From positions 62,001-126,000 of the forward strand of contig WGMA01000024.1 in assembly GCA_016125285.1 (NCBI GenBank): DNA of 64,000 bases. The letters run 5' to 3'. Made by a program: the position numbers and the translations under genes. Below, in pieces: positions 25,400 to 42,187 of the stretch. Within the stretch, counting starts at the first letter, position 1; every line of letters begins with the position of its first letter. This DNA comes from Phycisphaera sp. Lineage in GTDB: Bacteria; Planctomycetota; Phycisphaerae; Phycisphaerales; Zrk34. The notes beneath the pieces are model-generated. The model had not been told where the DNA came from. It saw only the letters and a list, made by a program, of their open reading frames with translations, and ran no database searches.

Positions 25400-28300
25400 T
25401 TACTCCGACTTCAGCGACTGCAGGTAATCCAGGATCGAAGCGAGCTGCTGCGTCGTGAGGTTCGCGACGAGGCCCTCGGGCATGATCGAGTTCTCCTGCT
25501 TCGTGCGCTGCTTGACGTCGCCGGGCTTGATCTTCGTCGGCAGCCCCGCGATGTTCCGCAGCTCGATCGAGTCACCGGACTCGCTGGTCACGAAGCCGAC
25601 CTGCGTCGTGCCATCCTTGAGCACGAAGATCTGCGTGTCGAAGCCCTGGGCGATCTTGGCGCTGGGCTTGAGGATCGACTCGATCAGTTCGGCGCGGCTG
25701 TAACGCTTGCCTATGTCGGCGAGCATCGGCCCCTTCGGCGGCTGGTCCTTCGAGACGGTGTGGCACGCAATGCAGCCCTGCTGCGTGAAGAGCTTGGCGC
25801 CCTCGGCCACGTCGCCCTTCAGCTTCTGCGCCGCGGCGAGCACCTTTTCAAACTTGAGCTTGGCGATCACGTCGCCGCTGGCCATGCCCGGCACGTTCGT
25901 CAGCCGCAGCGCCTGCGCCGCGAAGATCGCCGCGTCGTGCACCGCCGGGTTGCTGCTCGCCACCGACGCACGCACCTGCTTCTCGTAATCCTTGTCACGC
26001 GTGCGACCGATCGCGCGGAGCGCCGCCGCCGTCGACGCGTCCGCCTTCCACGCGTCGTTCATCGCGTCTTCCGCGGCCTTCTTGTCCTTGCCCTTGACGC
26101 GCTTGTCGCCCACCACGCCGAGCAGCACCGCGTACGCCACCTCGCGTGAGGCCGCATCCCCCGACTGGGCGACCTTCGCGAAGTAGCCCGCGTCCTTGGC
26201 GCGATCCTTGTCCGAGATGTACGCCTCGAACGCCGTGATCGCCTCACCCGCGGGCGGGTCCTGCGACATGAGCTGGCCGAGCGTCGCGACGAGCACGTCT
26301 CGCGCGTCGTTGCCGTTGACGTTCGACAGGGCCTTCGCCGCCGTGGCGCGGTCGGCCGCGCTCGCCTTGTCGTCCAGCGCGACGCGCTTCAGCAGCGGCA
26401 ACGCCGCCGGGGGCACGTCGGCCAGCGTCGCCAGCACGCTCACCGCCGCGGACCGCTGCGCCGGACCGGCCTCGGCCATCGCGACCAGCACGTCGCTCAT
26501 CCCCGCCAGGCTCACACGCTGGCGGGTCAGCTCGACGATCATCTTCGTCGCAACGTCCGCCGGAGCCGCCTTCAACGCCGCGGTCAGCGCCTTGTCGATC
26601 TTGTCCGTCTGCTCCCACTTGGTGGGGTTGTAGTAAGGCCCGCGTGTGTCGGGACGCGTGCCCCACCACTCGCCCTGCCACTCCGCCTCGACGTTGTACA
26701 GACGACACAACGCGCGGAAGATCGGCGCCGTGTGATCGCGGTCCTGCGTGCTGTTGAGCCGCTGTATCAGTCCGTTGACGACCGCCGGCTCGTGCAGCGC
26801 CTGGAGCACCTGGCACAGGCCCGCGGCGTGACGCGCGTCGGCGGTGTCCAACGCCTTGAGCGCCACATCACCGGCGTCGAGCAGCACCATCGCCTTGATC
26901 GCGTCGTGCGCCACCAGCGGATCGGGGTCGGCGACCATCGCCACCAGCGGCGCCGCGCCCGCGGGCTTGCCGAGCCGACCCAGGCCGATCACCGCCTGAA
27001 GGCGCACACGTGGATCGGCGTCCTTCAACGCCGCGACGAAAGGCTCGACCGGCACGTCGGCCACCTGCGTCAAGCGGTCCGCGATCGCCCGCAGCGCGTG
27101 CGACCGCACCACCGGGTCCCTGCTGACGCGGAGCAGCGCGTCGGTCGATGCCGCGCCGAGCAGTTGCTTGAGCGTGTAGATCGCCGCGACGCGCGAAGCC
27201 AGGGTCGCACCGCCGTCCGACCCGAGCTTCTCGAGGCCCGTGCGGAACACCGGCTTGTCGCCCCGACGCAGGATCTCCCGCTGCGTGAAGATGTGCAGCG
27301 AGTGGCTCGGCGACGTCAGGTACCCGAGCAGTTGATCGTCGCTGGCCTTGCCGAGATCGGGCGGCGTGGTTGGCCTATGGTCCTTCGGCGTGAGCCGCGC
27401 CACGAAACCCACATCCTCGTTCTTGTAGCTGAACCCGCCGTTCTTCCACGACGCGATGTACAGGTCGCCCTGCGGATCGACGTCGAGATCGGTCGGACGC
27501 GGGATCTTGACGAACTCCTCTGACCCGGCCTTGAAATCGGCGCCGTTGGGTGTCAGCGGATGGTAGTACACGACGCTGCGGCCCCAGTCGGCGGTCAGCA
27601 GCGCGTCGGAGTACTTGCCGAAGCCCGGCTCCTGGACGTACAGCGCGCCGGTGCCCGAGCCGCCGCCGTAATCCGCCAGCGGCTCGATCATCTCGTCCTG
27701 GAAGTTCTTGAAGAGGATCGGATAGCCGTGGTGGGCGTGGCCGCCGAAAACGTGGTGCAGGCGCACGTCCCAGCCGCCGCCGTCGTTGGTGTTGTCGCGG
27801 GCGAAGATGTTCATGTAGGGATCGACGGCGACGTCGCAGATGTTGCGGGTGCCGCGGTCGTAGATCTCGACCTCGCTGCCGTCGGGACGGATACGCGTGA
27901 CCGCGCCGCCGTGCAGCTGGAGCGACTTGCCGTCAGACCCTGTGGCCTTGACGTAGCCGAAGTCGCCGGTGGCGATGTAGAGCCAGCCGTCGATGCCCAT
28001 CCGCATGCCGTTGGTCGTGTGGTCGGCGCCGCGCTTCTCGTTCATGTCGGTGCTGATACCGGTGACGATGTCCTTCGACTCGTCCGCCACGCCGTCGCCG
28101 TCCTTGTCGGTGTACAGCGTGACGGTCGGCGGGTGCTGGACCCACAGCTGCCCGTGATCGTAGAACAGGCCGCGCGGGAAGCGTACATCGGTGACCTTCG
28201 TGAACTGGTCCGCCACGCCGTCACCGTCGGTGTCGACGCAGCGCATCACGTGCCCCTTGCCGGGGATCTTGCCCAGCGAACCGTTGGGGTCGACGCCGAT

Positions 28301-29779
28301 GTACACCGCGCCGCTCACATCGGTCACGAGGCACACCGGGTAATTGATCTTGGGCGGCACGGCGAACATCGTCACGTCGAAATCGTCAGGCGCGTGCACG
28401 TCGTTGATCGACGCGTTCGTCCCCGCCGAGCCCCCGGCGTCCGTGTCGCCCTTCTTCTTGCCCTTCATCGCGACGAGCTCGGGGAACTTCGGGTCTTCGT
28501 ACGCCTCGATCTCACGGATGCTGCCCCACGCCCCGGTCGACGAGCCGAGGTAGTTCACACGGAGGTAACGCGTGTTGGGGGCGTCGACCTTGAGCTCATC
28601 CACGCCGTTCGGCTTGCCGTTCTTCGACTCATCCTGCAGCGCATTCCACTTGTTTCCGTCGGCCGAGCCTTCAAGCGTGTATTGGTACGCGCACCCGGTC
28701 ATCGCCTCCCAGTGGATGCGGACGCCGCGCACGTGCTGCGGCTCGCCGAGATCGATCTGCAACCATTGCGGCGCGCTGCCGCTGGACGCGCACCAACGCG
28801 TGTCCAGGTCGCCGTCCACCGCGTTCTTGACCAGGTTGTTCTTGTTCGTCTCCTCACTGGACGCCTTGACGGTCATCCCCGAGGCGAGGTTGGCCGGTAC
28901 ACCGGTCTTGTCGCCGTCCGCGGCGGGCTTCGATGCGATCGCTGTCTGCCCGGCCAGCTCGACGGCCTTGGCGATCGCCGCCTCGTGGCCGTGGTCGGAG
29001 ACCGGCTGGTAGGCGTCGAGGCGGTCCAACGCCCAGAGGAAACCGCGCGCCACGGTGTTCATCCACTGCTGCGTCTCGACGGTCTCGTTGTGGTGACCGA
29101 CCGTCGTGCCGAAGACACGTGTCTTGTTCTCGAAGATGTTCGTCCAGAAGCAGGTGTCGTAGATGTCGGTGGGCTTGCCGTTCTCCAGCCGACGGGCCTG
29201 CGCGAGCGGCGTGGCGGTCTTGAGCACCTCGGAGATGCGGTACAGCTCGCCCTTCGGCGTGTCCCACGACTTGCCGAGATCGGCGACGATCGGGTTGTCC
29301 GGCGCGACCGTCTCGACCTTGTACGCGTAGTGCGCCCCGTGGTTGTGCGAGCGCACGCCCAGGAACTGCACCCACGGCTCGACCTTGCCGAACCCGTAGC
29401 TGTGCATCGCGCAGTGCATCACGACGCCGGGCATACCCGCGCGGTGCGGGGCGAGGATCTTGTCGATCCACTTCGGGTCGGTCTCGTTCGCGAAGCACTC
29501 GTTGTGGAAGATGATGTCGTACTTCTTGGCCAGGTCCTCCTCGTAGACCGGCACGCGGTCCGAGCCGGAGTGCAGCACGATGGTCCACTCGATCGGCGTC
29601 TTGCAGCGTGCGGAGATGCCCTGGGTGATGGTGTGCTGCTGGCGCTGATAATCGTGGCAACAGCCGCCGGTGATCATCAGGGCGCGGATCGGTTTGCTCT
29701 CGGCGAAACCGACCGCGGGCGAAAGCAGGCAAGCGCCGATCAGGCAGGCCAGAACCGCACGACAAAGAACGTTGCGCAT
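25400..29779 (-). CDS. Giant PVC-type heme-binding CxxCH protein with ThuA and discoidin domains
   Basis: 1459 residues. Signal peptide about 1-26; ThuA-like domain about 31-265 (ALMITGGCCHDYQRQQ); F5/8-type C discoidin domain about 300-425; membrane-bound dehydrogenase-type beta-propeller about 455-805 (HAPDDFDVTMFAVPP, GIDGWLYIATGDFGYV); HEAT-like repeats about 830-1290; and a C-terminal single-heme cytochrome with CIACH near 1336 and a distal Met in NSIMPEGL. The family is characteristic of Planctomycetes and Verrucomicrobia and is thought to act in the periplasm on sugars or polyols. ATG 29779 is chosen because AAGGAT lies seven bases before it; a TTG five codons earlier lacks this. Confidence 0.92.
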   Translation of the reverse strand: MRNVLCRAVLACLIGACLLSPAVGFAESKPIRALMITGGCCHDYQRQQHTITQGISARCKTPIEWTIVLHSGSDRVPVYEEDLAKKYDIIFHNECFANETDPKWIDKILAPHRAGMPGVVMHCAMHSYGFGKVEPWVQFLGVRSHNHGAHYAYKVETVAPDNPIVADLGKSWDTPKGELYRISEVLKTATPLAQARRLENGKPTDIYDTCFWTNIFENKTRVFGTTVGHHNETVETQQWMNTVARGFLWALDRLDAYQPVSDHGHEAAIAKAVELAGQTAIASKPAADGDKTGVPANLASGMTVKASSEETNKNNLVKNAVDGDLDTRWCASSGSAPQWLQIDLGEPQHVRGVRIHWEAMTGCAYQYTLEGSADGNKWNALQDESKNGKPNGVDELKVDAPNTRYLRVNYLGSSTGAWGSIREIEAYEDPKFPELVAMKGKKKGDTDAGGSAGTNASINDVHAPDDFDVTMFAVPPKINYPVCLVTDVSGAVYIGVDPNGSLGKIPGKGHVMRCVDTDGDGVADQFTKVTDVRFPRGLFYDHGQLWVQHPPTVTLYTDKDGDGVADESKDIVTGISTDMNEKRGADHTTNGMRMGIDGWLYIATGDFGYVKATGSDGKSLQLHGGAVTRIRPDGSEVEIYDRGTRNICDVAVDPYMNIFARDNTNDGGGWDVRLHHVFGGHAHHGYPILFKNFQDEMIEPLADYGGGSGTGALYVQEPGFGKYSDALLTADWGRSVVYYHPLTPNGADFKAGSEEFVKIPRPTDLDVDPQGDLYIASWKNGGFSYKNEDVGFVARLTPKDHRPTTPPDLGKASDDQLLGYLTSPSHSLHIFTQREILRRGDKPVFRTGLEKLGSDGGATLASRVAAIYTLKQLLGAASTDALLRVSRDPVVRSHALRAIADRLTQVADVPVEPFVAALKDADPRVRLQAVIGLGRLGKPAGAAPLVAMVADPDPLVAHDAIKAMVLLDAGDVALKALDTADARHAAGLCQVLQALHEPAVVNGLIQRLNSTQDRDHTAPIFRALCRLYNVEAEWQGEWWGTRPDTRGPYYNPTKWEQTDKIDKALTAALKAAPADVATKMIVELTRQRVSLAGMSDVLVAMAEAGPAQRSAAVSVLATLADVPPAALPLLKRVALDDKASAADRATAAKALSNVNGNDARDVLVATLGQLMSQDPPAGEAITAFEAYISDKDRAKDAGYFAKVAQSGDAASREVAYAVLLGVVGDKRVKGKDKKAAEDAMNDAWKADASTAAALRAIGRTRDKDYEKQVRASVASSNPAVHDAAIFAAQALRLTNVPGMASGDVIAKLKFEKVLAAAQKLKGDVAEGAKLFTQQGCIACHTVSKDQPPKGPMLADIGKRYSRAELIESILKPSAKIAQGFDTQIFVLKDGTTQVGFVTSESGDSIELRNIAGLPTKIKPGDVKQRTKQENSIMPEGLVANLTTQQLASILDYLQSLKSE

Positions 29780-29929
29780 AACGAGATCCTTCAAATTCGA
29801 TTCGGGAGAATGAAGCTCGGTGGTCTACTCGAAAGCTTGTACAAAGGGCGGGTGTGGTTACGGTACCTCAACGCCGCCGAACCCGCCATGATAGGCGACC
29901 GGACGCGTCACGACACGCCGTTGAATGGG

Positions 29930-30385
29930 TCAGGATCCGCCGTTGCGGGCCGGGGCGAGATTCCACCGCCCCCAGTACGCGATCAGGTCACGGATCATCT
30001 CACGAAACTCAATAAAATCCGCAGGCTTGACCATGTAGCTGTTGACGTGGTTGCCGTAGGCGCGGCTCAGGTCCGTGTCGGCGTCGGAGGTCGACAACAC
30101 GACGACGGGGATCGAGCGGAGGCCGTCGTCGTTCTTGATCGTGCGCAGCACCTCGTGGCCATCGATCTTCGGCAGGCGGAGGTCAAGCAACACGAGGTCC
30201 GGTCGGCGACGGTCGGTGAACGGCTCTTCGCCGCGCAGGAACCGGATCGCCTCCTCGCCGTCAGCCACACGCATCACGTCACTCGGCGTCTCGGCGCCCT
30301 CGAGCGCCAGACGCACGATCTGCGCATGGGCATCGTCGTCCTCAACGAGGAGCAAGCGTAATACGCGTTCTGGCGTTTCACTCAT
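29930..30385 (-). CDS. Single-domain response regulator, Rcp1-like
   Basis: 151 residues. Complete receiver: LLVEDDDAH pocket, phosphoacceptor in LVLLDLRLPKIDG, Thr/Ser in VVVLSTSDAD, lysine in SYMVKPADF, and the typical Rcp1 ending FIEFREMIRDLIAYWG. It lies 76 bases downstream of the PAS kinase at 30462 and mirrors the kinase/Rcp1 pair at 13436-15911; the two receivers are clearly related. The ATG at 30385 was chosen over an earlier start that would add 23 residues with no likeness to the family. Its most likely partner is the adjacent kinase. Confidence 0.9.
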   Translation of the reverse strand: MSETPERVLRLLLVEDDDAHAQIVRLALEGAETPSDVMRVADGEEAIRFLRGEEPFTDRRRPDLVLLDLRLPKIDGHEVLRTIKNDDGLRSIPVVVLSTSDADTDLSRAYGNHVNSYMVKPADFIEFREMIRDLIAYWGRWNLAPARNGGS

Positions 30386-30461: not shown

Positions 30462-33230
30462 TTAGCGATCTGCTGTCGTTTCGCCTACCACCAGGGAGTC
30501 GGGCAGCCCGACCCAGAAGGTCGCGCCGCCACGCTCGACAGATTCTACCCACGTGCGGCCCCCGTGCATCTCGGTGATTCGCCGAACAATGGCTAGTCCC
30601 ATCCCTGTGCCGTCGATCGAGTTATCCAGACGTTGGAACATCTCGAACACCCGGTCGTGGTACTCCGCCCGGATGCCTTTCCCGTTGTCCCGCACGAAGA
30701 TACGGACCTCGTTATCCACGTGCTCGCAGCCGATCGAGATCCGCGGCGTGTCAGCGTCGCAGCCGTACTTCAAAGCGTTGACGATCAGGTTTTCGAACAG
30801 GTGCGTGAGTCGGTTGCGGTCGGCGCGGATCATCGGCATGTCCGGCGCGACGTCGACTTCGACGCCGCGCTGGCCGATCGCGCTCTGATGGCCGGACACG
30901 ACGTGTGCGACAAGCTCGGACAGCGCGACGCTCTCGGGGTTGTTCGGCACGCGACCGATGCGGCTCAGCTCCAACAACTCATCGATGCAGCGGCGCATCT
31001 TGTTGCCCGCCCGTTCGATCTGCTCGATGAACTCGCGCATGCGGTCGTGCCGATTGGCGCCGATGTCCTGCCGCATCAGGCCGAGGAATCCGAGCATCGT
31101 GACGATCGGCGACTTGAGGTCGTGCGACGCGGTGTAGACGAACTGCTCCATCTCCTGGTTGGTCTGCTCGAGCTCGGCGTTGGCGGCTTTGAGCGACTGC
31201 TCGAACTCGATCCGCTCGGAGATGTCGCGCAGGAATCCGCAGAACTCCCACGTGTCGCGGAGATGGATCGGCACGATGGCCAACTCGACTGGGAACCGCT
31301 TGCCGTCGCGGCGCAAAGCGGACAGCTCGATGCGGCGGTTCAGCACGTTGCCGCGCCCATCCTGGAGGAACCGCTTGAGGCCCCGCTGGTGCGCGTCGTG
31401 GTACTGGTCCGGGATGATCAGCGACGCGAGCCGCTCGCCCACCGCTTCCTCACGCGTCCAGCCGAACACCTGCTCGGCCTGCGGGTTCCACCCGGTCACG
31501 CGGCCGTCGGAGTCCATCGTCACCACCGCGTCGAGCGCCGTGTCGACGATCAGACGCGTGCGCTCCTCGCTGGCGATCAGGCGCTGCTCGGCGAGCTTGC
31601 GCTCGGTGAGATCAACGATGAACGCTACGTGCTCGTCCTCTTCGTCGAGCAGCTTCGCGGCGCTGATCAGGATCGGCACCCGCACGCCGTCCTTGCGGAT
31701 GTACTCCTTCTCGTACGCCTCGAAGCGGCCCGTGCGGCCGAGGCGTTCCATCGCCTCCTCGTAGCGCTCGCGATACTCCGGCGCCGTTAGATCCTTCCAG
31801 CTGATCCTTCCGGAGCAGAGCTCCTCGCGGCTGTAGCCGGTCAGCGCGACGAACGCGTCGTTGACACGCAGGATGCGGCCGGCCGAATCCCGGAACGCGA
31901 TCGCGACGTCTGCGGTGTCGACCATGCGGTCGAGGCGTTCGCGTTCGTGGTAGACCTGCCGCTCGGCCTCACGCCGCGCGGTGATGTCGACCATCACGCC
32001 CCGGAGCGTCGTCGTCTCCCCGTCGCGCACCACGCGAACCACGTTGTAAAGCCACACGACGCGACCGTCCGCGGCGATCATCCGCATCTCGATCTCGAAG
32101 TGATCGTGCTTGCGGATCATCTCGCCGAGCCGGGCCAGGTCGTACGCCCGCGCGTCGGCGTGGATGTGATCGGCCCAGAAGCCGGGCTCGAGCCAGTCGT
32201 CGACGGGATACCCGAGGATGTGCTCCGCCTGCGGGCCCACGTAGCTGAACCGCAGGTCGTCGGCGTTGCATTCCCACGGGATCAGGCGAACGGTCTCCGC
32301 GAGGTCACGGAATCGTTCCTCGCTGGCGCGCAGCTCGCGCTCGGCGCGCTGGCGCTCGACGATCTCCGCCGCGAGCTTCTTGCGCTCGCCTTCGAGGTCT
32401 TCGAGGATGCTGAGCATGGCCAGCGAGCGGTCCGACAGTTCGCTGCGGCTGGCTTCCAGATCGGCGAGCGTCTGCTCGAGCTCGACGGCGCGGCGGTTGA
32501 GCTCGGCGTTGACGTTGTACAGCCGGAGCGTTTCGCGGCGTGACCGCTGGAACATCGGTCGGAACGCGACGATCCACGCCGCCACCAGCGACATGAGCGT
32601 CGCCCCCAGCACCGAGCGCCAGATCAGGTCGAGCGTGGCGAGCGTGTTCCTGAAGTGGCCCTTGTACGCGTCGGTCACGGCGTCGATGCCCAGCAGGATG
32701 TCGCTGTCGTCGACCGCGTCCAGAACGGACCGCGCCGGATCCACACGCAGATCGATTGTCACCTCGGGCGGCGTCTCGGCCACCGCGTGCACCGATGCGA
32801 TAAACGGCTTGGCCCGAGCGCACAGGCGGTACGGGTCTTCCTCGAAGACGCGCTCGACGCTGTCAACGGGCCGCGGCACGCCAACGCCCGGGTCGCCGTG
32901 CATCAGCGCGTTGTGCACACGCTCGAACTCGTCGACGGACTCGGCCAGCCGCTCCCGCGCCGCGCGACGGCGCTCGGGGGTGTCGGCCAGCGACATCTCG
33001 CGGACGCGGTGACCGATGTCGTCGAACGCGTGCCGCTGCTTTTCGCTGTACTCGATGAGCAGCACGTCCCGCTGAAACACGTCCGTCTGATGCTGATAGA
33101 TCATGTACTCGGCGATGGCGAGCGCGCCGAGCAGGCTGAGCGTCACGACCGCACGGATGGCGTGTCCGCGCGTCATCGCTTCACGCGCGCGGAGTGAGAG
33201 CGGTTCGGTGCTGAGTGCGGGGTCGGTCAT
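30462..33230 (-). CDS. Membrane sensor histidine kinase with three PAS domains
   Basis: 922 residues. One helix near 27-45, a periplasmic helical region to about 205 (PilJ/4HB-like, not assigned further), a second helix near 210-230, and a coiled coil about 235-310. Three PAS domains follow, at about 315-425, 430-550 and 560-675, each ending in a DxTxR-like PAC motif. HisKA has the phosphoacceptor in YTASHDLKSPIVTM, and HATPase has NLIVNALKYG, VRDNGKGI and GTGMGLAIVRRI. It starts inside the stop of the ethylene-receptor-like gene (ATGA overlap), so the two are translated together. Confidence 0.92.
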   Translation of the reverse strand: MTDPALSTEPLSLRAREAMTRGHAIRAVVTLSLLGALAIAEYMIYQHQTDVFQRDVLLIEYSEKQRHAFDDIGHRVREMSLADTPERRRAARERLAESVDEFERVHNALMHGDPGVGVPRPVDSVERVFEEDPYRLCARAKPFIASVHAVAETPPEVTIDLRVDPARSVLDAVDDSDILLGIDAVTDAYKGHFRNTLATLDLIWRSVLGATLMSLVAAWIVAFRPMFQRSRRETLRLYNVNAELNRRAVELEQTLADLEASRSELSDRSLAMLSILEDLEGERKKLAAEIVERQRAERELRASEERFRDLAETVRLIPWECNADDLRFSYVGPQAEHILGYPVDDWLEPGFWADHIHADARAYDLARLGEMIRKHDHFEIEMRMIAADGRVVWLYNVVRVVRDGETTTLRGVMVDITARREAERQVYHERERLDRMVDTADVAIAFRDSAGRILRVNDAFVALTGYSREELCSGRISWKDLTAPEYRERYEEAMERLGRTGRFEAYEKEYIRKDGVRVPILISAAKLLDEEDEHVAFIVDLTERKLAEQRLIASEERTRLIVDTALDAVVTMDSDGRVTGWNPQAEQVFGWTREEAVGERLASLIIPDQYHDAHQRGLKRFLQDGRGNVLNRRIELSALRRDGKRFPVELAIVPIHLRDTWEFCGFLRDISERIEFEQSLKAANAELEQTNQEMEQFVYTASHDLKSPIVTMLGFLGLMRQDIGANRHDRMREFIEQIERAGNKMRRCIDELLELSRIGRVPNNPESVALSELVAHVVSGHQSAIGQRGVEVDVAPDMPMIRADRNRLTHLFENLIVNALKYGCDADTPRISIGCEHVDNEVRIFVRDNGKGIRAEYHDRVFEMFQRLDNSIDGTGMGLAIVRRITEMHGGRTWVESVERGGATFWVGLPDSLVVGETTADR

Positions 33231-33862
33231 GAGTCGTCGGTCTGGTGGTCGTCTTCGAATCCCTCGGAAATCGTGTACGGCGCCGCGCGTCCCAGCTCGG
33301 CGGCCATCGCGTTCACCTCGCGTTTGAGGTCGACGATCCGCTGTTCACGGCCCACGGCCACGCGGCTGAACCGCTCCAGTTCGCTGGTCAGCTTCTCCAG
33401 CGCGTCGGCACGCTGCTGAAGCGCCTCCTCGGTGCGAGCTCGCTCGGCGATCTCGTCTTCGAGGCGTTCATTGATCTTAGCCAGTCCGGGCAGCGACAGC
33501 GCTGTGGGGATGATCGGGATCATCGCCAGCACCGTCGCCCAGGACACGATCGCCGTGATCGCCTTGACCAGTGCCGACAGCCGGTAAACGGGCCACCAGA
33601 AGATAACCGCTTCGATCAGGTGCACCGTGCCGCAGGCGAAGATGAACGCGCAGAACAGCCAGAAGATCCGCGGGAAGGGGATGTCGCGCCGCTTGATGAT
33701 GAAATACGCCAGCACGCAGGGGATCGCGGTGTAGGCCCCGAACGTCGCGAGATCTGAGATGATGTGCGTCCAGCCGTGAAACTCCGTCCAGTGTCCGCAA
33801 TGCCAGCGTTCGGGAAAGTCGCTCGTATCGAACAGCGAGGTGGCCAGCACGAGATAACTCAT
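33227..33862 (-). CDS. Ethylene-receptor-like transmembrane sensor without kinase domain
   Basis: 211 residues. Three membrane helices (about 33-56, 66-90, 96-120) match the ethylene-binding domain of plant ETR1. With a constant offset of 12, ETR1 residues Asp25, Tyr32, Pro36, Ile62, Cys65 and His69 correspond here to Asp37, Tyr44, Pro48, Ile74, Cys77 and His81; Cys65/His69 are the copper ligands in ETR1. A coiled coil (about 125-165) and the segment RIVDLKREVNAMAAELG follow, then the protein ends: no HisKA or HATPase. AGGAG precedes ATG 33862 by about nine bases. Its stop overlaps the PAS kinase start (ATGA). Ligand binding itself is not proven by sequence. Confidence 0.85.
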   Translation of the reverse strand: MSYLVLATSLFDTSDFPERWHCGHWTEFHGWTHIISDLATFGAYTAIPCVLAYFIIKRRDIPFPRIFWLFCAFIFACGTVHLIEAVIFWWPVYRLSALVKAITAIVSWATVLAMIPIIPTALSLPGLAKINERLEDEIAERARTEEALQQRADALEKLTSELERFSRVAVGREQRIVDLKREVNAMAAELGRAAPYTISEGFEDDHQTDDS

Positions 33863-33994: not shown

Positions 33995-34492
33995 TCAGAC
34001 CGAGGCAAAATGCCGCTGAAGGTAGCGGGTGATGCGACGCGCGCCGATCACGCCGGTGAGCCGCCCGTCGGCGTCGACGATCGGCACGTGGCGGAACATC
34101 CCCACGTCCATCACGTTCAACACGTGTGCGGGGCTGTCGGTTTCGTGCACGACGACGGGGTCGGGCGTCATGGCGTCGGACACCGGCCGCCCCGCCCACA
34201 GGTCGTAGTCGCACGAGAGGCGGTCCAGCACGTCGCGCTCCGACAGGATCCCCACCGGCCGATCGCGCCGCACGACCACGACGCACGCGATGTCCAGCCC
34301 CGCCATCAGCTGGATAACCCGCCCCACGGACGTGTTCGGCTCGACGCACGCGAACGGCATCATCTCCACCGATTCCATCGCGTCTTCGTGGAGCGTCCGA
34401 TCCAGGTCGCTGCGGTAGTTGGTTTCATAGCGGCGAAGCGGGTCGTCGAACGAGGTGGGGTCCGGCTCGTGACGGTGACGTGGCTTGAGCAT
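33995..34492 (-). CDS. Two-CBS-domain protein
   Basis: 165 residues. A short acidic N-terminus (RRYETNYRSDLDRTLHE) is followed by two CBS domains: about 40-95 (VGRVIQLMAGLDIACVVVVR, PVGILSERDVLDRL) and about 103-160 (HVLNVMDVGMFRHVPIVDAD, LTGVIGARRITRYL). CBS pairs bind adenine nucleotides and sense energy state. ATG 34492 follows GGAGGG; the longer open frame is unlike CBS proteins. It is 26 bases downstream of another CBS gene and likely in one operon with it and with the small acidic protein at 35015. Confidence 0.87.
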   Translation of the reverse strand: MLKPRHRHEPDPTSFDDPLRRYETNYRSDLDRTLHEDAMESVEMMPFACVEPNTSVGRVIQLMAGLDIACVVVVRRDRPVGILSERDVLDRLSCDYDLWAGRPVSDAMTPDPVVVHETDSPAHVLNVMDVGMFRHVPIVDADGRLTGVIGARRITRYLQRHFASV

Positions 34493-34518
34493 CGCATGCC
34501 CTCCGCGGCGGGTGGTGA

Positions 34519-34992
34519 TCAGGCGCCCTCGCGAAACGCCATCGCGAGGTGGGATTCGATCGGGTGGACTTTTACGACGTCCGGCAGGTAGTTCTCCACG
34601 ACGTGCGTGATCAGCCCGCGCAGGCCCGTCAACGCGACCGGCCGGCCGGTGATGTCGACCACGCACACCCAGCGCAGGCTGTGCATCCGCATCGTGTCCA
34701 GCAGATCGCCGATCGACGCGCTGAGCGGAAGCGTGTGCAGGTGCCGCGCCATGTGACGCACGACGTGCTCACCGAGCGCGTCGGGCCGCTCGGCCAACAG
34801 CCGGATCAGCAGCTTTTCGTTGAACATGCCGATCGGCTTGCCCGCCTGGTCCACGATGATCACCGCGCCGACGCGGTTGTGCCGCATCGCCGCGTTCGCC
34901 TCGTCGACGGTCGCCAGCGGGTGAACCGTCGGGCAGGGGCGCAGGTCCAGCTGCCCGATCCGGTCGTGCATGAGGTGGTTCAGCGTGCTCAT
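34519..34992 (-). CDS. Two-CBS-domain protein, second copy
   Basis: 157 residues with two CBS domains: about 20-80 (VDEANAAMRHNRVGAVIIVD, GMFNEKLLIRLL) and about 90-150 (SIGDLLDTMRMHSLRWVCVV, LTGLRGLITHVVENYL). GGAGG lies eight bases before the ATG. It is only distantly like the neighbouring CBS protein, so they are not a recent duplication. Adenine nucleotide binding is the family expectation; what it regulates is not visible. Confidence 0.87.
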   Translation of the reverse strand: MSTLNHLMHDRIGQLDLRPCPTVHPLATVDEANAAMRHNRVGAVIIVDQAGKPIGMFNEKLLIRLLAERPDALGEHVVRHMARHLHTLPLSASIGDLLDTMRMHSLRWVCVVDITGRPVALTGLRGLITHVVENYLPDVVKVHPIESHLAMAFREGA

Positions 34993-35728: not shown

Positions 35729-36436
35729 TCACGCGGTCTTCTGGTCCTCGACCCAGCGCACCGCGTGCTTGATCAGCTCGTTGGCGTCCGCGATCTTCAG
35801 CTTCGCCATGATGTTGGCACGGTGGCTCTCGATGGTCTTGATGCTCAGGTGCAGACGCTCGGCGACCTTCCGGCTGCCCAGGCCCTGCCCCAACAGCTCG
35901 AACACCTGAAGCTCACGATCGGTCAGCGATTCGACGGGCGAGCCCATCGAGTCGGCGTCACGACCGAGGAACGTGTCGAGCAGACGCGACGCCATCCGTT
36001 CGCTGAGATAGATCTGCCCGCGCGCGACCTTGCGGATCGCCTTGATGATCTGGTCCGGCGCCTCCTGTTTCATGATGTACCCCGCGGCGCCGTTGCGCAG
36101 GCAACGCTCCGCGTAGTACCCCTCGTCGTGCATCGACAGCACGAGGATGTGCACGTTGGGGTGGCGCGTCTTGATGTCGCGCAGCGCCCCGAACCCGCTG
36201 ACGCCCTCGAACGTCAGGTCCATCACCGCCACGTCCGGGTTGAACTGCTTGATCGCGTCGAGCGCCTCGTCCGGCGACTCGACGTCGGCGCAGATCTCGA
36301 TATCGCCCTCGTCTTCGATCAGGTGGCGCAGCCCCTGCCGGACGATCGCGTGATCATCCGCGATCGTGATCCGGATGCGGCGCTGCGTCGCCTTGCCGTT
36401 GGTGTTTGTCTTGGTTGATGCCATCGCGGTACTCAT
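35729..36436 (-). CDS. NarL/LuxR-type response regulator
   Basis: 235 residues. Receiver about 20-140 with IADDH pocket, phosphoacceptor in DVAVMDLTFEGVSG, Ser in ILVLSMHDEG, and lysine in GYIMKQEAP; then a LuxR HTH (LTDRELQVFELLGQGLGSRKVAERL). All phosphorylation residues are present, unlike the atypical regulators at 489 and 1287. ATG 36436 overlaps the kinase's TGA (ATGA), with GAGGGGG upstream. It is the cognate regulator of the HisKA_3 kinase by overlap and by the usual NarX/NarL pairing. Confidence 0.92.
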   Translation of the reverse strand: MSTAMASTKTNTNGKATQRRIRITIADDHAIVRQGLRHLIEDEGDIEICADVESPDEALDAIKQFNPDVAVMDLTFEGVSGFGALRDIKTRHPNVHILVLSMHDEGYYAERCLRNGAAGYIMKQEAPDQIIKAIRKVARGQIYLSERMASRLLDTFLGRDADSMGSPVESLTDRELQVFELLGQGLGSRKVAERLHLSIKTIESHRANIMAKLKIADANELIKHAVRWVEDQKTA

Positions 36437-37848
36437 TTCCCAACCCCCTCTTCGTTCATTGTACAGGTTACCGTCATGCCGGCGCCTGGTTTTGATGTAA
36501 AGTTCAGACTCGCGCCGATGAGGCTCGCGCGGTGTCGGATCAGGCGCAGGCCCATGCCCTCGGCGTGAATCGGGTATTTCGCCATGCCGACGCCCGAGTC
36601 GCGCACCTGCATCCGCACGTGGCCGTCCGGGCGATCGAGCGTAATCGTGATGCGATCCGCCTTGCTGTGCTTGATCGCGTTGTTGACCGCCTCGCGGGCG
36701 ATCAGGAACAGGTTCGTCGCCAGGTTCGTGTCGTTGACCTCGACCTCCGGATCGTGGCGCACCACACAGCGGATGCCGAAACGCGTGCGCGTCTCGTCCG
36801 CCAGGTTGTTCAACGCCGCGATCAGGCTGTCGTCGAGCACCTGCACCGGGCACATCCCGCGCGCCAGCTCACGCACCTGCGACAGCGTCGTCTTCGCGAG
36901 CTCCGCAAGATTCCCGGCGTATTCGGATTCGTCGGTGCCCGCGCACTTCTGCTGCAGACGCTGGCACATGAACGCCAGCCCGGTGAGCTGCTGGCCGATG
37001 CCGTCATGCAACTCCTGGCCGATGTGTCGGCGTTCGTTGTCGGCCGCCTCGGCGAGCTGACGCTGCAGCGCGCGACGCTGCGTGGTGTCGCGCAGCGTCG
37101 CGACGACCAGCTGGCCGGACTCGTGGTGATACGGGCTGAGGTTGATCTCGACGGGGATGCGTCGGCCGTCGCGTGCGACGATCTGCACGTCCTCCGACAC
37201 GCCGATCGTCTTCGCCTCGCCCGAGCGGACCTGCGTGACGCAGTGCTCGCGGAAGTCCTGCCGCAGCTCCGGCGCGACCAGCTGTTCAACGCCCTGGCCG
37301 ATCAGGTCCGAGCGCGGACAACCGAACAGCCGCTCGGCCCGCGCGTTGACCATGCGGACCACGCCGTCGTCACCCAGCACAACGATCGCATCGGGCCCGA
37401 CCTCGAACAGGTCCTGGAACCGCCGCTCGGCCCGCTCGATCGCGAAGCTGATCGAACGCTCCAGCAGGGCCGGACCGATGTCGTGCTCGATGAGCAGGCT
37501 CTTGTCCAGGTAGTCGGTTGCGCCGTTGCGCAGCGCCCGCGTGGCGAGGTCGGCGTCGGCCTGACCGGTCAGCAGGATCAGCGGAGTCGTAAGCTGCCGC
37601 TGCCGTGTTTCCTTGAGCAGTTCCAGGCCGTTCTTAGCGCCGAGACGATAGTCGATCAGGCCCACGTCGTAGTCGGACTGGCGTAACGCTTCGCGGCCCT
37701 CGTCGTAGGTCCGCGCCCATCGCAGGTCGACGCGGCCGTCCAACGCCTGCTCGAGCATGCCGCGAACGAGCATGTAATGCGCCTCGTCATCTTCGACAAG
37801 CACAACCTGCATCACCCTCGTCGCGTCGCTGGACATGGTCATTAACAT
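36433..37848 (-). CDS. REC-PAS-HisKA_3 sensor histidine kinase (NarX-like)
   Basis: 471 residues, soluble. An N-terminal receiver (about 13-130: VVLVEDDEAH, GLIDYRLGAKNG, ILLTGQAD, DYLDKS) comes before a PAS domain (about 145-260), a HisKA_3 dimerisation domain with phosphoacceptor in HIGQELHDGIGQQL, and HATPase (REAVNNAIKHSKA, VRDSGVGM, GMGLRLIRHRA). A receiver as input implies that another kinase controls it. It overlaps and probably phosphorylates the LuxR regulator that follows. Start is uncertain: ATG 37848, 37842 and 37836 are all in frame, as is TTG 37860. Confidence 0.9.
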   Translation of the reverse strand: MLMTMSSDATRVMQVVLVEDDEAHYMLVRGMLEQALDGRVDLRWARTYDEGREALRQSDYDVGLIDYRLGAKNGLELLKETRQRQLTTPLILLTGQADADLATRALRNGATDYLDKSLLIEHDIGPALLERSISFAIERAERRFQDLFEVGPDAIVVLGDDGVVRMVNARAERLFGCPRSDLIGQGVEQLVAPELRQDFREHCVTQVRSGEAKTIGVSEDVQIVARDGRRIPVEINLSPYHHESGQLVVATLRDTTQRRALQRQLAEAADNERRHIGQELHDGIGQQLTGLAFMCQRLQQKCAGTDESEYAGNLAELAKTTLSQVRELARGMCPVQVLDDSLIAALNNLADETRTRFGIRCVVRHDPEVEVNDTNLATNLFLIAREAVNNAIKHSKADRITITLDRPDGHVRMQVRDSGVGMAKYPIHAEGMGLRLIRHRASLIGASLNFTSKPGAGMTVTCTMNEEGVGK

Positions 37849-37961
37849 GGTATCACCCAAACCGGCGCGTCACGCGCCCAACACTGCCGAACGCGAACTT
37901 ATTTGTTCGCCCGATGTCATTCGCCGCGTGGCGGGAAGTTTGCCGCGCCACGTCGTGCCGT

Positions 37962-38552
37962 CTAAACCGCCGCGCGGTGCGGCTCGATCGCCTCGGCCCG
38001 TCGCAGGATCAGCTCTTCCTCGTGGATCATGTCCTCGACCGTCGCACACACCAGCGCCAGTTCGTCGAGGCTCTGCTGATACGACTCGCCGCAGCGGGAC
38101 GGCGGCGAGAAGCCGCAGGTCATCGTCTGGATCGCGTCGACGTTGCCGAGGATCCGTGCGTGGCTCCGACGGGCTTCGTCGAGCCGGGCTTCGAGCTCGG
38201 CCGCGGAGAACCCGCTCCCCGCCGACGATCGCGACGTCTGTCTCAGCAACGGAAACAGCACGTGCTCGGCGCGGCGGATGTGTGCCACGATCGCGCCGTG
38301 CAGCGTCTCATACGTTTCGAGCAGGTCGTGCAGGTGCGCGTATCGCTGGCCGTCGCGGACCGTCTCCTCGATCAGCAGTCCGCGGACGTGCGGCATCGCG
38401 TGGCTGAGGTAGACGTGGTGAACGCCGACGATGCGATCCATCAGATCGCAAAGCGGCAGGTCACTCCAGTTCGTCTCGCGGGGCGCGTCGCAATACGCGT
38501 CGCGGACGCTCATCGCCGGCAGTTGTTCATGATGGATTCGTTTGTAGTACAT
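37962..38552 (-). CDS. Hemerythrin-like protein, RIC (YtfE/ScdA)-related
   Basis: 196 residues. Histidine/glutamate pattern of a di-iron four-helix bundle: HHVYLSHAMPHVRGLL, LHGAIVAHIRRAEHVLFPLL, ARRSHARILGNVDAIQ and DMIHEEELILRR. The stretch HARILGNVDAIQTMTCGFSPP resembles the RIC family, which repairs iron-sulfur clusters damaged by oxidative or nitrosative stress; the usual N-terminal ScdA domain is absent. GGAG precedes ATG 38552 by about six bases; a start five codons earlier is less likely. It lies about 110 bases upstream of the REC-PAS kinase gene, so it may share regulation with that pair. Confidence 0.82.
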   Translation of the reverse strand: MYYKRIHHEQLPAMSVRDAYCDAPRETNWSDLPLCDLMDRIVGVHHVYLSHAMPHVRGLLIEETVRDGQRYAHLHDLLETYETLHGAIVAHIRRAEHVLFPLLRQTSRSSAGSGFSAAELEARLDEARRSHARILGNVDAIQTMTCGFSPPSRCGESYQQSLDELALVCATVEDMIHEEELILRRAEAIEPHRAAV

Positions 38553-38807
38553 CTCTTCTCCGTTCACCCCCCGTTGATTCCAGCCGCCCCCACCGCGCTA
38601 CACAGCGGCGTTCACGGCTGTACTCCGTCAACCTCATTGTCTGCGGCGCATGGATGCAAAGTAAATCGGACCGACGTGGTTGACCGACTAGGAAGAATGC
38701 CCACTCAACGCGCGCCCCTACGGATGATCCCCTACCACCCCGGTCCCGTCGGCACGCCGCACACCTGATGCAAACATCTTGTTGCGGCACGAATTACATT
38801 TCTACGG

Positions 38808-38834: not shown

Positions 38835-40511
38835 ATGAGTGGCAACCAAGAACCCGTGCTGAAGCTTCGCACGCCGGACGGGCTGATTACCGAATTCCCT
38901 CTGGTGAGCGATCGCATCACGATCGGCCGATCGTCGAAGAACGACGTTCAGTTGCCGACCGCGGACGTCTCGCGCGTGCACGCCGAACTGGTGCGCGATC
39001 CGACCGGCCAGTGGTGGGTCCGCGATCTGGACAGCGCCGGCGGCACGGAGGTCAACAACGTGCCGATGAGCGAGGCGATGATCACCGGCGCAGACCTCAT
39101 CCGCATCGGACCCTACGAACTGGCGATGACGTCGAGCGAGGGCGTCGACGCGCTGGCGGCTCACCCGCCGCTCGACGGCGCGGCGGCGCTGGCCGACGAC
39201 GCGTCGGACACGCGTGTCAGCGGCCTCGGCGGCGACGGCAAGGCTATCGACGTGATGCACCTGACCGCCGTGCGCGAGTTCGGCACGCGGCTGGTCCAGA
39301 CCAGCGACGTCGGCGAGCGGCTGCGGCTGCTTTGCCGCGTGGTGGTCCGCAAGGAATTCCACGGCACGGCCGCAGTCGTGCTGCGTGTCAAACGCGACGC
39401 CAAGGGGCGCACGCGTCCGCCCGAGCAGCTGTGCGAGCCGCAGCTGGCCAAGCACGGCGGCAAGGTGCCGTACATCTCACGCAGCCTCGTCGACACCGTC
39501 ATGAGCACCGGCCTGCCGTTCATGGCCAAGCAGGGCAAGGCGGACCCGCAGGCCGTGCAGATGACGATGGTCGAGGGCAGCGAGCAGTCGGGCATCGTCG
39601 CGATGGCGTGCCCGCTGCGTGCGGGCGCCAACGAGATCGATCTGCTCTACGCGGTGTTCCCCCGCACCTACGGGGACCCGAGCTGGCTGGTCATCGTGTC
39701 GATGCTGTGCCAGCAGTTCCAGCAGGCCGAGGCGATGCGTAAGGTCGAGGACGCGAAGCGCGCCGAGACGGTCGTCCGCAAGCTGTACGAGCAGGCCCAG
39801 CAGCTGCGGTGGGAGTTCGCGCCGGAGCTGTCGGAGATCGAGGGGCTCGACGTGTCGGTGTTCGCGGAGGTCTGCCCGTGGGTGGGCGGCGACCTGTCCG
39901 ACGTCGTGATCGACGCGAAGGGCAACGTGGTGATCGTCGTCGGCGAGGTCAACGGCACGGGCATCCCCGCGTCGTACCGCGTCGGCTGCGCCAGCGCGAT
40001 GATCCGCTCGTTCCTCAACGCCGGGCTCGATCTCGCCGCGACGCTGACGCACGTCGATCAGCAGGTGAAACAGACGATGCGGTCGAAGTGCGAGGCGCGG
40101 CTGACGTGTGTGTCGTTCAACGTGACGACGGGCCGGTTCGACTGGGCGCTGGCCGGGGGCATGCCGCTGATGCGTGTCGACCGCGACGGCCAGTGCCGCG
40201 CGATCTGCGAGTCCGGCGGCGAGCCGCTGGGGCGCGGGCACGGCGTGATCGAGCGCGGCGAAGGCGAACTGCCACCCGGCGCGGCGCTGCTGCTCTACAG
40301 TGATGGCATGACGAAGATCCCGCCGGGCCTCGAGGGCACGCTGGGCATCGGTCGGCTCTGCGAGCGCGCCGCCTCGATGGTCCAGCACTACGACGACATC
40401 ACCTCCGCGAAGATCATCGCCGAGCTCCGCCGCGCGATCGGCCAGGTGCTCGGCCGCCGCAAGCTGCAGGACGACCAGACTTTGATCCTCGCCCGCCGTC
40501 CGCTACCGTAA
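38835..40511 (+). CDS. FHA-GAF-like-SpoIIE/PP2C protein, catalytic copy
   Basis: 558 residues. FHA domain about 20-100 with GRSS (31-34), SRVHAEL (46-52) and Asn74, the phosphothreonine-binding residues. A GAF-like region covers about 145-300, then an RsbU/SpoIIE PP2C-type phosphatase about 335-555: metal aspartates in GGDLSD (Asp353), YSDG (Asp490) and DDQT. The usual DVSGKG motif is EVNGTG, so one ligand is Glu. It would dephosphorylate serine/threonine on a partner recruited by the FHA domain. It precedes a paralogue by 48 bases, and a Ser/Thr kinase converges on the pair, suggesting a phosphorylation switch. Confidence 0.87.
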   Translation: MSGNQEPVLKLRTPDGLITEFPLVSDRITIGRSSKNDVQLPTADVSRVHAELVRDPTGQWWVRDLDSAGGTEVNNVPMSEAMITGADLIRIGPYELAMTSSEGVDALAAHPPLDGAAALADDASDTRVSGLGGDGKAIDVMHLTAVREFGTRLVQTSDVGERLRLLCRVVVRKEFHGTAAVVLRVKRDAKGRTRPPEQLCEPQLAKHGGKVPYISRSLVDTVMSTGLPFMAKQGKADPQAVQMTMVEGSEQSGIVAMACPLRAGANEIDLLYAVFPRTYGDPSWLVIVSMLCQQFQQAEAMRKVEDAKRAETVVRKLYEQAQQLRWEFAPELSEIEGLDVSVFAEVCPWVGGDLSDVVIDAKGNVVIVVGEVNGTGIPASYRVGCASAMIRSFLNAGLDLAATLTHVDQQVKQTMRSKCEARLTCVSFNVTTGRFDWALAGGMPLMRVDRDGQCRAICESGGEPLGRGHGVIERGEGELPPGAALLLYSDGMTKIPPGLEGTLGIGRLCERAASMVQHYDDITSAKIIAELRRAIGQVLGRRKLQDDQTLILARRPLP

Positions 40512-40559
40512 CGGAATACGGACCGTCCAGTCCCCCTACGGCGCACGTCGAGAACCGCC

Positions 40560-42179
40560 ATGACCGATACCGCCTTCGAATCCGATCGTTACCTCGTCGA
40601 GCTCCGCGGGCCCGAGGACTTCTACCGCAGCACGACCGTCAACACCGACCGCATCACCATCGGCCGATCGAGCTCCAACCAGGTGCAGATCCCCGACGGC
40701 TCGGTCTCGCGGCATCACACCGAGGTGGCGCGAGACGACGACGGTCGGTGGTGGGTGATCGATCTCGGCAGCCAGAACGGCACGTACGTCGACGGCGAAC
40801 GCGTCGAGGGCAAGATGGTGATCGACCAGGGCGACCCGATCCAGATCGAGGGGTTCATCCTGCGGATCCGCCCCGCCGACGACGCCCGCTCGCTGACGAT
40901 GTACGAGACGCGGTCGGACGCCATCCGCCCGCTCGGTCGTGTCGCGCTGCCGCGGATCACCGGCGAGCAGCTCAACGCGCTGATCGACCTCGGCGAGCGT
41001 TTCATCCATCAGCACGACGACGCCGAACGCCAGGCGCACCTGTGCCGCGTGATGATCAGCGACACGCTCGGCGGCATGTACGCCGCGGTGCTGCGGTGCG
41101 AAGTCAGCGACGCGGGGCTCGACAGCGTGGCCGTGTTGCACAAGGCGTCGCGCGACGCCGGGCCCTCCGCCGAACACATCTCCCGCACACTGCTCAATCA
41201 CGTTCTGGCGCACCGGCAGCCGGCCTACGCCACGCAGTCCGGCGACAGCGGCGTGCAGATGACCGTCATCGACCCGAAGCGCAAACAGGCCGCGATCGTC
41301 TGCCCGATCGTCATCGACGAAACCGGCATGACCGTGCTCTACGTCAACTTCCCCGCGGAGCTCGGCGGCGAGGACTGGCTGTCGCTGGCGCACCTGGCGG
41401 TCGACCAGTACCGCCGTGCCGTGGCCGTGTGGGAGCTACGCGTCAAGGAGCAGCGGCAGGCCGTGGCGGAGAACGAGCTGCGGCGTGCGCGGCAGATCCA
41501 GCTGGCGCAGGTCCCGTCCGAGGTGGTGATGCCCGGGCTCGAGGTCGTCGTGGATTTCCAGGCGAACCCGTCGGTCGGCGGCGGGTACATGGACGTGGCG
41601 CGGCTGTCCGACGGGCGGGCGTTGGTGTTCCTCGCCGCGGCGTCGGGCAAGGGACTCGAGGCCGCGCTGTTCACCGTCAGCCTCCACACCTACGTCAACA
41701 CGCAGGTCGAGGGCTACGTGGACCTGCGTGAGTTCATGGGTCGGCTCAACCGCTTCATGTGCCAGAACCTGCCGAGCGGCGCGTTCATCGCGGCGATCGG
41801 CATGATCATCGACCCGCAGTCGGGGCAGATCGAGCACGTGAACTTCGGGCACACGCCGCCGTGGATCATCGACCGCAAGAACCCGCCGGTGCAGCTGCCG
41901 ATGGATCAGCTGCCGCCGCTGGGCATGGAGGTCGAGGCCGAGCCGGTCGTACACGTCGCCCAGCTCGAGCCCGATCAGCTGCTGGCCGCGGTGAGCCGCT
42001 CGCTGCTCGGCGACGACTCGGACACGGGCCAGGTGCTGTCGCGCATCTGGCAGGACGCGGCGCAGCCCGACGTGTACGACTCGGCGGATAAGCTGCTGAG
42101 CGTCATCAAGGCGCCCGGCGACCGCGTCGACGACACGGGCGACATCTACCTGATGTTGATGGAACGCGCGACCGACTGA
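40560..42179 (+). CDS. FHA-GAF-like-SpoIIE paralogue with degenerate phosphatase site
   Basis: 539 residues. FHA domain intact: GRSS (35-38), SRHHTEV (50-56), SQNGTYVDG (71-79). A GAF-like region and the coiled linker (ENELRRARQIQLAQVPSE) precede a SpoIIE fold in which the metal motifs are altered: GGDYxD is GGGYMD (340-345), DVSGKG is AAASGKG (359-365), and the YSDG segment is replaced by AVSRSLLG. Only FGHTPPW and a late DD remain. It probably lacks phosphatase activity and may act as a scaffold or decoy for FHA-bound phosphoproteins (inference). Directly downstream of the apparently active copy; likely one operon. Confidence 0.85.
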   Translation: MTDTAFESDRYLVELRGPEDFYRSTTVNTDRITIGRSSSNQVQIPDGSVSRHHTEVARDDDGRWWVIDLGSQNGTYVDGERVEGKMVIDQGDPIQIEGFILRIRPADDARSLTMYETRSDAIRPLGRVALPRITGEQLNALIDLGERFIHQHDDAERQAHLCRVMISDTLGGMYAAVLRCEVSDAGLDSVAVLHKASRDAGPSAEHISRTLLNHVLAHRQPAYATQSGDSGVQMTVIDPKRKQAAIVCPIVIDETGMTVLYVNFPAELGGEDWLSLAHLAVDQYRRAVAVWELRVKEQRQAVAENELRRARQIQLAQVPSEVVMPGLEVVVDFQANPSVGGGYMDVARLSDGRALVFLAAASGKGLEAALFTVSLHTYVNTQVEGYVDLREFMGRLNRFMCQNLPSGAFIAAIGMIIDPQSGQIEHVNFGHTPPWIIDRKNPPVQLPMDQLPPLGMEVEAEPVVHVAQLEPDQLLAAVSRSLLGDDSDTGQVLSRIWQDAAQPDVYDSADKLLSVIKAPGDRVDDTGDIYLMLMERATD

Positions 42180-42187
42180 TCGATCGA

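Follow-up and report, generated by a model that had tools for sequence, protein, structure and literature searches.

The DNA analysed here, a stretch of 64,000 nucleotides from Phycisphaera sp. (contig WGMA01000024.1; hereafter the window), the gene content of which by itself points to a planctomycete as probable host, carries on its minus strand a three-gene operon in which a stand-alone protein with the ethylene-binding domain of ETR1 (hereafter EBD) is followed by a separate histidine kinase and then by a single-domain response regulator (coordinates in table 1). The first-pass annotation of the region had the coordinates and the 211-residue translation of the sensor right, as well as the ATGA overlap of its stop with the start of the 922-residue kinase and the nature of the product, namely a sensor devoid of kinase domains that is co-encoded with a kinase. 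Pfam profiles identify HisKA and HATPase_c in the kinase and a receiver domain (REC) in the adjoining gene, which is the composition of a two-component operon. The lone REC protein, 47-50% identical to the product of the REC gene that follows kinases with LED, a coil described below, at two other loci (L176 and L177; loci outside the window are cited by such numbers), is likely the output of the window kinase.

The sensor has a short N-terminus, a full-length ETR1_N domain and a helical C-terminus. Its match to Pfam family PF25487 (ETR1_N), which spans residues 29-124 and positions 2-97 of the 97 in the profile with 122.3 bits against a cut-off of 27 (E=1e-35), is far above chance. Six residues singled out in the first-pass annotation (Asp37, Tyr44, Pro48, Ile74, Cys77 and His81) lie where it had placed them, Cys77 and His81 being the counterparts of the copper ligands Cys65 and His69 of ETR1; to these we add Ile47, equivalent to Ile35 of ETR1, and the helix-3 lysine (Lys91 of ETR1, Lys100 here). 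The sensor thus keeps all seven ethylene-binding residues of ETR1, the set and roles of which are treated, after Wang et al. 2006, in PMC11819568. Among the 92 EBDs that we collected this set is near-invariant (Cys in 91/92, His in 91/92 and Asp in 86/92), its conservation being one of the points at which the first-pass annotation could have failed; the profile search and the structure prediction of the trimembrane region, both proposed there as checks, agree. AlphaFold2, run with 55 relatives, yields a model with a mean predicted local distance difference test (pLDDT) of 94, in which the three transmembrane (TM) helices also supported by hydropathy span residues 27-57, 64-86 and 93-123 at pLDDT ~97, followed by a single helix from 127 to 189 and a disordered end. 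Solved structures, searched by sequence and by fold, returned no relative, generic helical matches alone being found. By all sequence criteria the domain belongs to the ethylene-binding family; its architecture lies outside the one-chain rule of that family, according to which EBD and output share a polypeptide, given that the reading frame stops after the C-terminal module described below and the kinase is the next gene.

From these residues, and by analogy with SynEtr1 and AzoEtr1, we infer that the sensor would bind copper and ethylene. It is conceivable, though on balance unlikely, that the ligand is instead Cu(I) itself or another alkene or gas, a possibility otherwise compatible with the explanation proposed below: within the literature examined, ethylene binding in bacteria has been reported for cyanobacteria and Azospirillum only (PMC11819568), and the residues that binding requires are not known to be enough for it. 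Against this stand the conservation of all seven residues required in ETR1, together with the helix-3 lysine, and the ethylene binding of AzoEtr1 and SynEtr1, which have the same kind of domain (PMC11819568).

The partner kinase consists of two TM helices (residues 22-40 and 203-221) enclosing an extracytoplasmic region of ~160 residues, a long coil, three PAS domains, HisKA and HATPase_c, as deduced from Pfam and TM prediction. The extracytoplasmic region matches no Pfam family above cut-off (a PilJ-like match of 17.5 bits is sub-threshold) and has no relative among plasmid records; its single-sequence AlphaFold2 model is all-helical, with low confidence across much of the region. The kinase is itself a two-TM sensor, and the locus is not merely one receptor cut in two.

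The C-terminus of the sensor, previously described as a coiled coil, is indeed helical and contains a conserved module that had been overlooked and is common to many unrelated sensors. This module, hereafter called TAIL, comprises the last ~40 residues (consensus ELERFxxLAVGRExRMIELKxEVNxLxxELG), which align strongly with those of two other stand-alone EBD proteins, L035 and L036. Searching the window's phylum with an alignment of TAIL retrieved proteins without EBD that bear the same segment, nearly always at the chain terminus: a GAF protein (L142), a double Cache-HAMP-PAS protein (L143), a REC protein (L144), HAMP-PAS proteins (L145 and L149), a four-PAS protein (L148), ammonium transporters (Amt; L150, L167, L168 and L171), a PAS protein with a sub-threshold V4R match (L163), small PAS-like proteins (L164 and L165), a PAS-GAF-PAS protein (L166), a haem-type Tll0287-PAS protein (L169) and a multi-TM protein (L170). 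Domains were named from Pfam for L142, L143, L144, L149, L150, L163 and L169, and by similarity to the window domains or by eye for the others. Kinase genes adjoin the TAIL genes of L144, L148, L166 and the four Amt loci, and likewise those of the TAIL-bearing PAS proteins of L176 and L177; in L146 the segment is internal, inside a fused kinase. TAIL cannot be considered specific to EBDs, since the same module is found on other sensor types, and it is uncommon, occurring in 18 of the 294 genomes of the window's phylum and in 2/140 and 2/292 genomes of two other phyla. To avoid circularity, a TAIL model was trained on non-EBD proteins only; it scores the window sensor at 56.1 bits (E=1e-16), L035 at 51.1 and L036 at 45.8, and reaches at best 2.3 bits on 88 fused EBD proteins. 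The split EBDs of this phylum are therefore characterised by TAIL, which fused EBDs lack.

Most kinases adjoining TAIL proteins have a coil in common, hereafter called LED (consensus RAVLNILEDxxxEKxxLE), which in the window kinase follows the second TM helix. In L148, L176 and L177 it is repeated in tandem at the N-terminus of the kinase with a period of 21 residues (three copies in L148, four in L177 and four to five in L176), and the repeats abut the kinase core without any other recognised input domain, Pfam detecting HisKA and HATPase_c alone in the L177 kinase. These kinases must therefore depend on an external input, for which the adjoining TAIL gene is the obvious source. A LED model built from non-EBD partner kinases finds the window kinase (E=4e-5, Z=100) as well as those of L035, L144, L149, L163 and L167, whereas none of the EBD-fused kinases gives an E value under 1. 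When each locus was left out in turn, the scores were 9.8 bits for the window, 10.7 for L035, 6.7 for L036, 14.0 for L148, 10.8 for L163, 12.2 for L170, 12.6 for L149, 15.0 for L146, 8.4 for L166, 16.6 for L176 and 20.2 for L177, with a low end of 5.0 for L169, 4.0 for L144 and 1.1 for L150 and negative values for L125, L126 and the incomplete kinase of L143. The best of the 76 non-partner control kinases (59 EBD-fused and 17 others, excluding L167, L168 and L171, which pair with Amt-TAIL proteins and are related to one of the training sequences) reached 4.2 bits. In the genome of the window the sole TAIL and the sole clear LED sit in adjacent genes, as judged with a LED model that included the window sequence itself; the next LED match (E=0.2) falls in a doubtful reading frame that is apparently antisense. 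The window thus combines TAIL on a sensor with LED on the adjacent kinase, the two marks of the class that we propose.

As a prospective check of this adjacency, 72,556 plasmid records were searched with the TAIL consensus. Three records matched, all from Pseudomonadota: Paroceanicella profunda (a solute-binding and PAS sensor), Vitreoscilla filiformis (CHASE5-PAS) and Aeromonas caviae (PAS, by similarity). In 3/3 TAIL is terminal and the next gene encodes a histidine kinase, with a 4-bp overlap. For LED the three kinases score 12.3, 2.8 and 12.7 bits, respectively, so that two of the three exceed every control; the Vitreoscilla kinase has a segment, GALSMMEDQRR, that is LED-like yet not above the controls. 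Tandem LED repeats found no match in the plasmid records. (The Aeromonas record, NZ_AP026896.1 or L181, is listed in PLSDB as a plasmid; with 4.9 Mb it is probably a chromosome.)

Neither TAIL nor LED matches any Pfam or NCBIfam family, and no relevant paper was found to contain their motif strings, string matching in text being a weak test. In the open literature (subscription papers lying outside its scope) on split kinases, on EBDs in connection with Planctomycetes and on ethylene receptors outside plants, we found no description of TAIL, LED or the split EBD/kinase arrangement.

How common the split is was evaluated in a sample of ~970 genomes in partly overlapping sets (294 from the window's phylum, 248 from its class, 235 from the phylum to which a myxobacterial match belongs and 194 from the cyanobacterial phylum). 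ETR1_N matches are in the order of 190, and in nearly all of them the domain is part of a long frame that also encodes a kinase or another output domain. Outside the window, a short EBD protein directly before a separate kinase is found at four loci: L035 (the kinase starting a few bases past the stop), L125 (4 bases apart), and L036 and L126, in which the genes overlap, the contig of L036 ending within the kinase. The split is not confined to the window's phylum: the domain, which the first-pass annotation had placed at the N-terminus of the kinase chain in cyanobacteria, is separate from the kinase in two genomes of the cyanobacterial-phylum sample also. On a tree of 92 EBDs the five split ones fall into three groups (window; L035 with L036; L125 with L126) and imply three state changes, no smaller number being compatible with the well supported branches; the tree is limited by few columns, and the three changes could be one gain and two losses. 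By this phylogeny, split EBD/kinase pairs have at least two origins, probably three. The nearest relatives of the window EBD are fused, TAIL-less kinases of its own class (L058 and L059, 71% identity); because of this, and because a TM region is already present in the kinase, the split seems to stem from a recombination of parts and not from the cutting of one gene. The earlier description of the sensor as split from its kinase holds for the separate chain and is too simple on both these counts. Three further candidates were set aside: L124 and L182 resemble broken fused genes, and L037 (315 residues), which has an EBD and a PAS-like part and ends abruptly, was left out of the count. In L124 (6695-7923) the EBD gene stops early and a GGDEF fragment comes next, which points to a disrupted EBD-diguanylate cyclase as the probable origin. 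Genome G773 holds both a split EBD/kinase pair (L126) and a pair of PAS-TAIL protein and LED-repeat kinase (L177).

The best explanation of these data as a whole, to which we assign a probability slightly below 60%, is a two-chain sensor kinase in which the EBD signal passes through TAIL and LED to the kinase. The small protein would dimerise in the membrane and hold Cu(I) through Cys77 and His81 as ETR1 does, binding ethylene or a similar small molecule; the change on ligand binding would travel along the continuous helix 127-189 to TAIL, which would pack on LED in the adjacent kinase, shifting the helix that leads through the PAS domains to HisKA. Since a TM region and PAS domains belong to the kinase itself, the EBD signal is expected to be integrated with their inputs instead of simply replacing them, and the phosphate would then pass to the single-domain regulator. 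In the most economical reading, TAIL and LED would be complementary coiled-coil parts that let a sensor on one chain drive a kinase on another. The two are located within long helices predicted by AlphaFold2 and, in the window, start at a similar depth below the membrane (~45 residues past TM3 and ~47 past TM2, respectively), a match that serves as a consistency check only, the offset being larger in L035 and L036. Assembly between proteins, which the first-pass annotation had suggested, is partly supported: the split recurs in L035, L036, L125 and L126, and the shared C-terminal module is a candidate for the contact. We lean, by a narrow measure, towards the broader view that TAIL and LED form an unrecognised interchangeable coiled-coil connector from stand-alone sensors to separate histidine kinases in several phyla, of which the window would be the ethylene-receptor version; the sensors so connected would include the ethylene-type copper domain, Amt, haem, solute-binding, GAF, PAS and receiver types, and perhaps a hydrogenase-linked one.

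Several observations weigh against this pairing. The ends of L125 and L126 are no more than TAIL-like (4.4-4.5 bits, with a weaker similar motif, REERIRDLRAEV) and their kinases have no LED by the model, so that TAIL/LED pairing is weak there. No kinase lies immediately downstream of the TAIL proteins L142, L164 and L165, and genes intervene between TAIL protein and kinase in L149, L163 and L169. LED is short (25 residues) and was first noticed in these very kinases, a selection bias that the leave-one-out test limits and does not remove; the scores of L144, L150 and L180 in that test stay at or below that of the best control. An accessory role is also to be considered, with the EBD protein modulating an already complete kinase through membrane helices, in the manner of BceAB-BceS or WalHI-WalK, and TAIL serving for homodimerisation only. 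The window kinase does own two TM helices and an extracytoplasmic region, and it is well established that histidine kinases can have accessory proteins in the membrane (PMC8534201); this alternative nevertheless seems improbable, for TAIL is also present on soluble GAF, REC and PAS sensors and LED on soluble kinases (L148, L176 and L177), all of which leave no room for contact within the membrane. That a fused EBD-kinase gene was broken by mutation or assembly error, leaving the small protein as a remnant, fits the closeness of L058/L059 and the truly broken-looking EBD genes of L124 and L182, but is very improbable given that the kinase begins with its own TM helices, that the EBD carries a conserved TAIL absent in its fused relatives, and that the ATGA overlap is clean and the arrangement kept in other lineages.

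ETR1, SynEtr1 and AzoEtr1 share with the window the three-TM domain and the same seven binding residues, and AzoEtr1 too has a neighbouring response-regulator gene (PMC11819568); in these receptors the kinase chain begins with the domain, whereas in the window it is a separate TAIL protein beside a kinase with its own TM region. Sensor and kinase also reside on separate chains, often encoded by adjacent genes, in BceAB-BceS, LuxP-LuxQ and the NosP or H-NOX systems, which couple by transporters, periplasmic or haem proteins, whereas the window has a C-terminal coil reused across sensor types. To our knowledge, these systems have no shared plug. The S-helix (Anantharaman et al. 2006, PMC1592074) resembles TAIL and LED in being a coiled coil of ~40 residues in signalling proteins; it lies between domains of one chain and bears an ERT signature, whereas TAIL ends the chain with GRExRMIELKxEVN and LED has LNxLED, neither consensus containing ERT. 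CheA3/CheA4 (PMC3591291) likewise spread kinase function over two chains; there the catalytic parts are separated, whereas here the sensor stands apart from a whole kinase. Fusions of Amt and histidine kinase (ammonium sensor kinase, Nat. Commun. 2018, cited in PMC8534201) resemble the TAIL systems in tying a membrane sensor domain to a kinase; in L150, L167, L168 and L171, by contrast, Amt ends in TAIL and the kinase is the next gene. These Amt pairs, which occur in several genomes belonging to a single family, would each be an ammonium sensor kinase in split form; in L150 (1807-6586) the Amt-TAIL gene precedes a Tll0287-HAMP-PAS-GAF histidine kinase. In L149 (3034-6840), the gene for a HAMP-PAS-TAIL protein comes before one for a NiFe-hydrogenase small subunit and, at a greater distance, one for a LED kinase, an arrangement suggestive of a hydrogen-sensing variant of this scheme.

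Table 1. Features of the sensor operon in the window, and coordinates of the LED-repeat kinases at other loci
Feature	Position	Strand	Basis
ETR1_N stand-alone protein, 211 aa	33227..33862	-	Pfam E=1e-35; translation; ATG at 33862 with AGGAG before it, stop at 33227
ETR1_N three-TM domain, aa 29-124	33491..33778	-	Pfam, residue set, AlphaFold2 helices
C-terminal TAIL module, aa 161-198, ELERFSRVAVGREQRIVDLKREVNAMAAELGRAAPYTI	33269..33382	-	56 bits, E=1e-16, non-EBD model
ATGA overlap, sensor stop / kinase start	33227..33230	-	Exact overlap of the two reading frames
Partner histidine kinase, 922 aa	30462..33230	-	Pfam and TM prediction
Kinase TM1, extracytoplasmic region and TM2, aa 22-221	32568..33167	-	No family above cut-off
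Kinase LED coil, aa 268-288, RSLAMLSILEDLEGERKKLAA	32367..32429	-	9.8 bits, leave-one-out
HisKA with phospho-acceptor His (SHDLKSP)	30954..31151	-	Pfam E=9e-12
HATPase_c	30498..30821	-	Pfam E=2e-26
Single-domain response regulator, REC only	29930..30385	-	Pfam Response_reg E=5e-20
LED-repeat kinase	L148:4801-5694		
LED-repeat kinase	L176:1631-2731		
LED-repeat kinase	L177:3189-4199		

Immediately upstream of the operon lie two neighbouring genes for small paired-CBS-domain proteins (33995-34992), and near it a cluster of signalling genes encoding a REC-PAS-HisKA_3 kinase, a LuxR-type regulator and a hemerythrin-domain protein (35729-38567). Elsewhere in the window, two FHA-SpoIIE phosphatase genes stand in tandem next to a Ser/Thr kinase gene (38835-45157, the kinase at 42188-45157), and a very large protein joins ThuA, F5/8 type C, DUF7133, HEAT and cytochrome c domains (25400-29794).

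Ethylene receptors are known as single chains, and the study of signal transfer by mixing parts is hard with ETR1. A two-chain receptor of the ethylene type, in which a copper sensor meets its kinase by a coiled coil, would allow such a study. The conserved tail that this sensor shares with unrelated sensors beside separate kinase genes suggests a general sensor-kinase plug; if TAIL and LED do constitute one, sequence alone could suffice to match many orphan sensors with kinases that lack an input, and such a connector would be usable for building new sensors.

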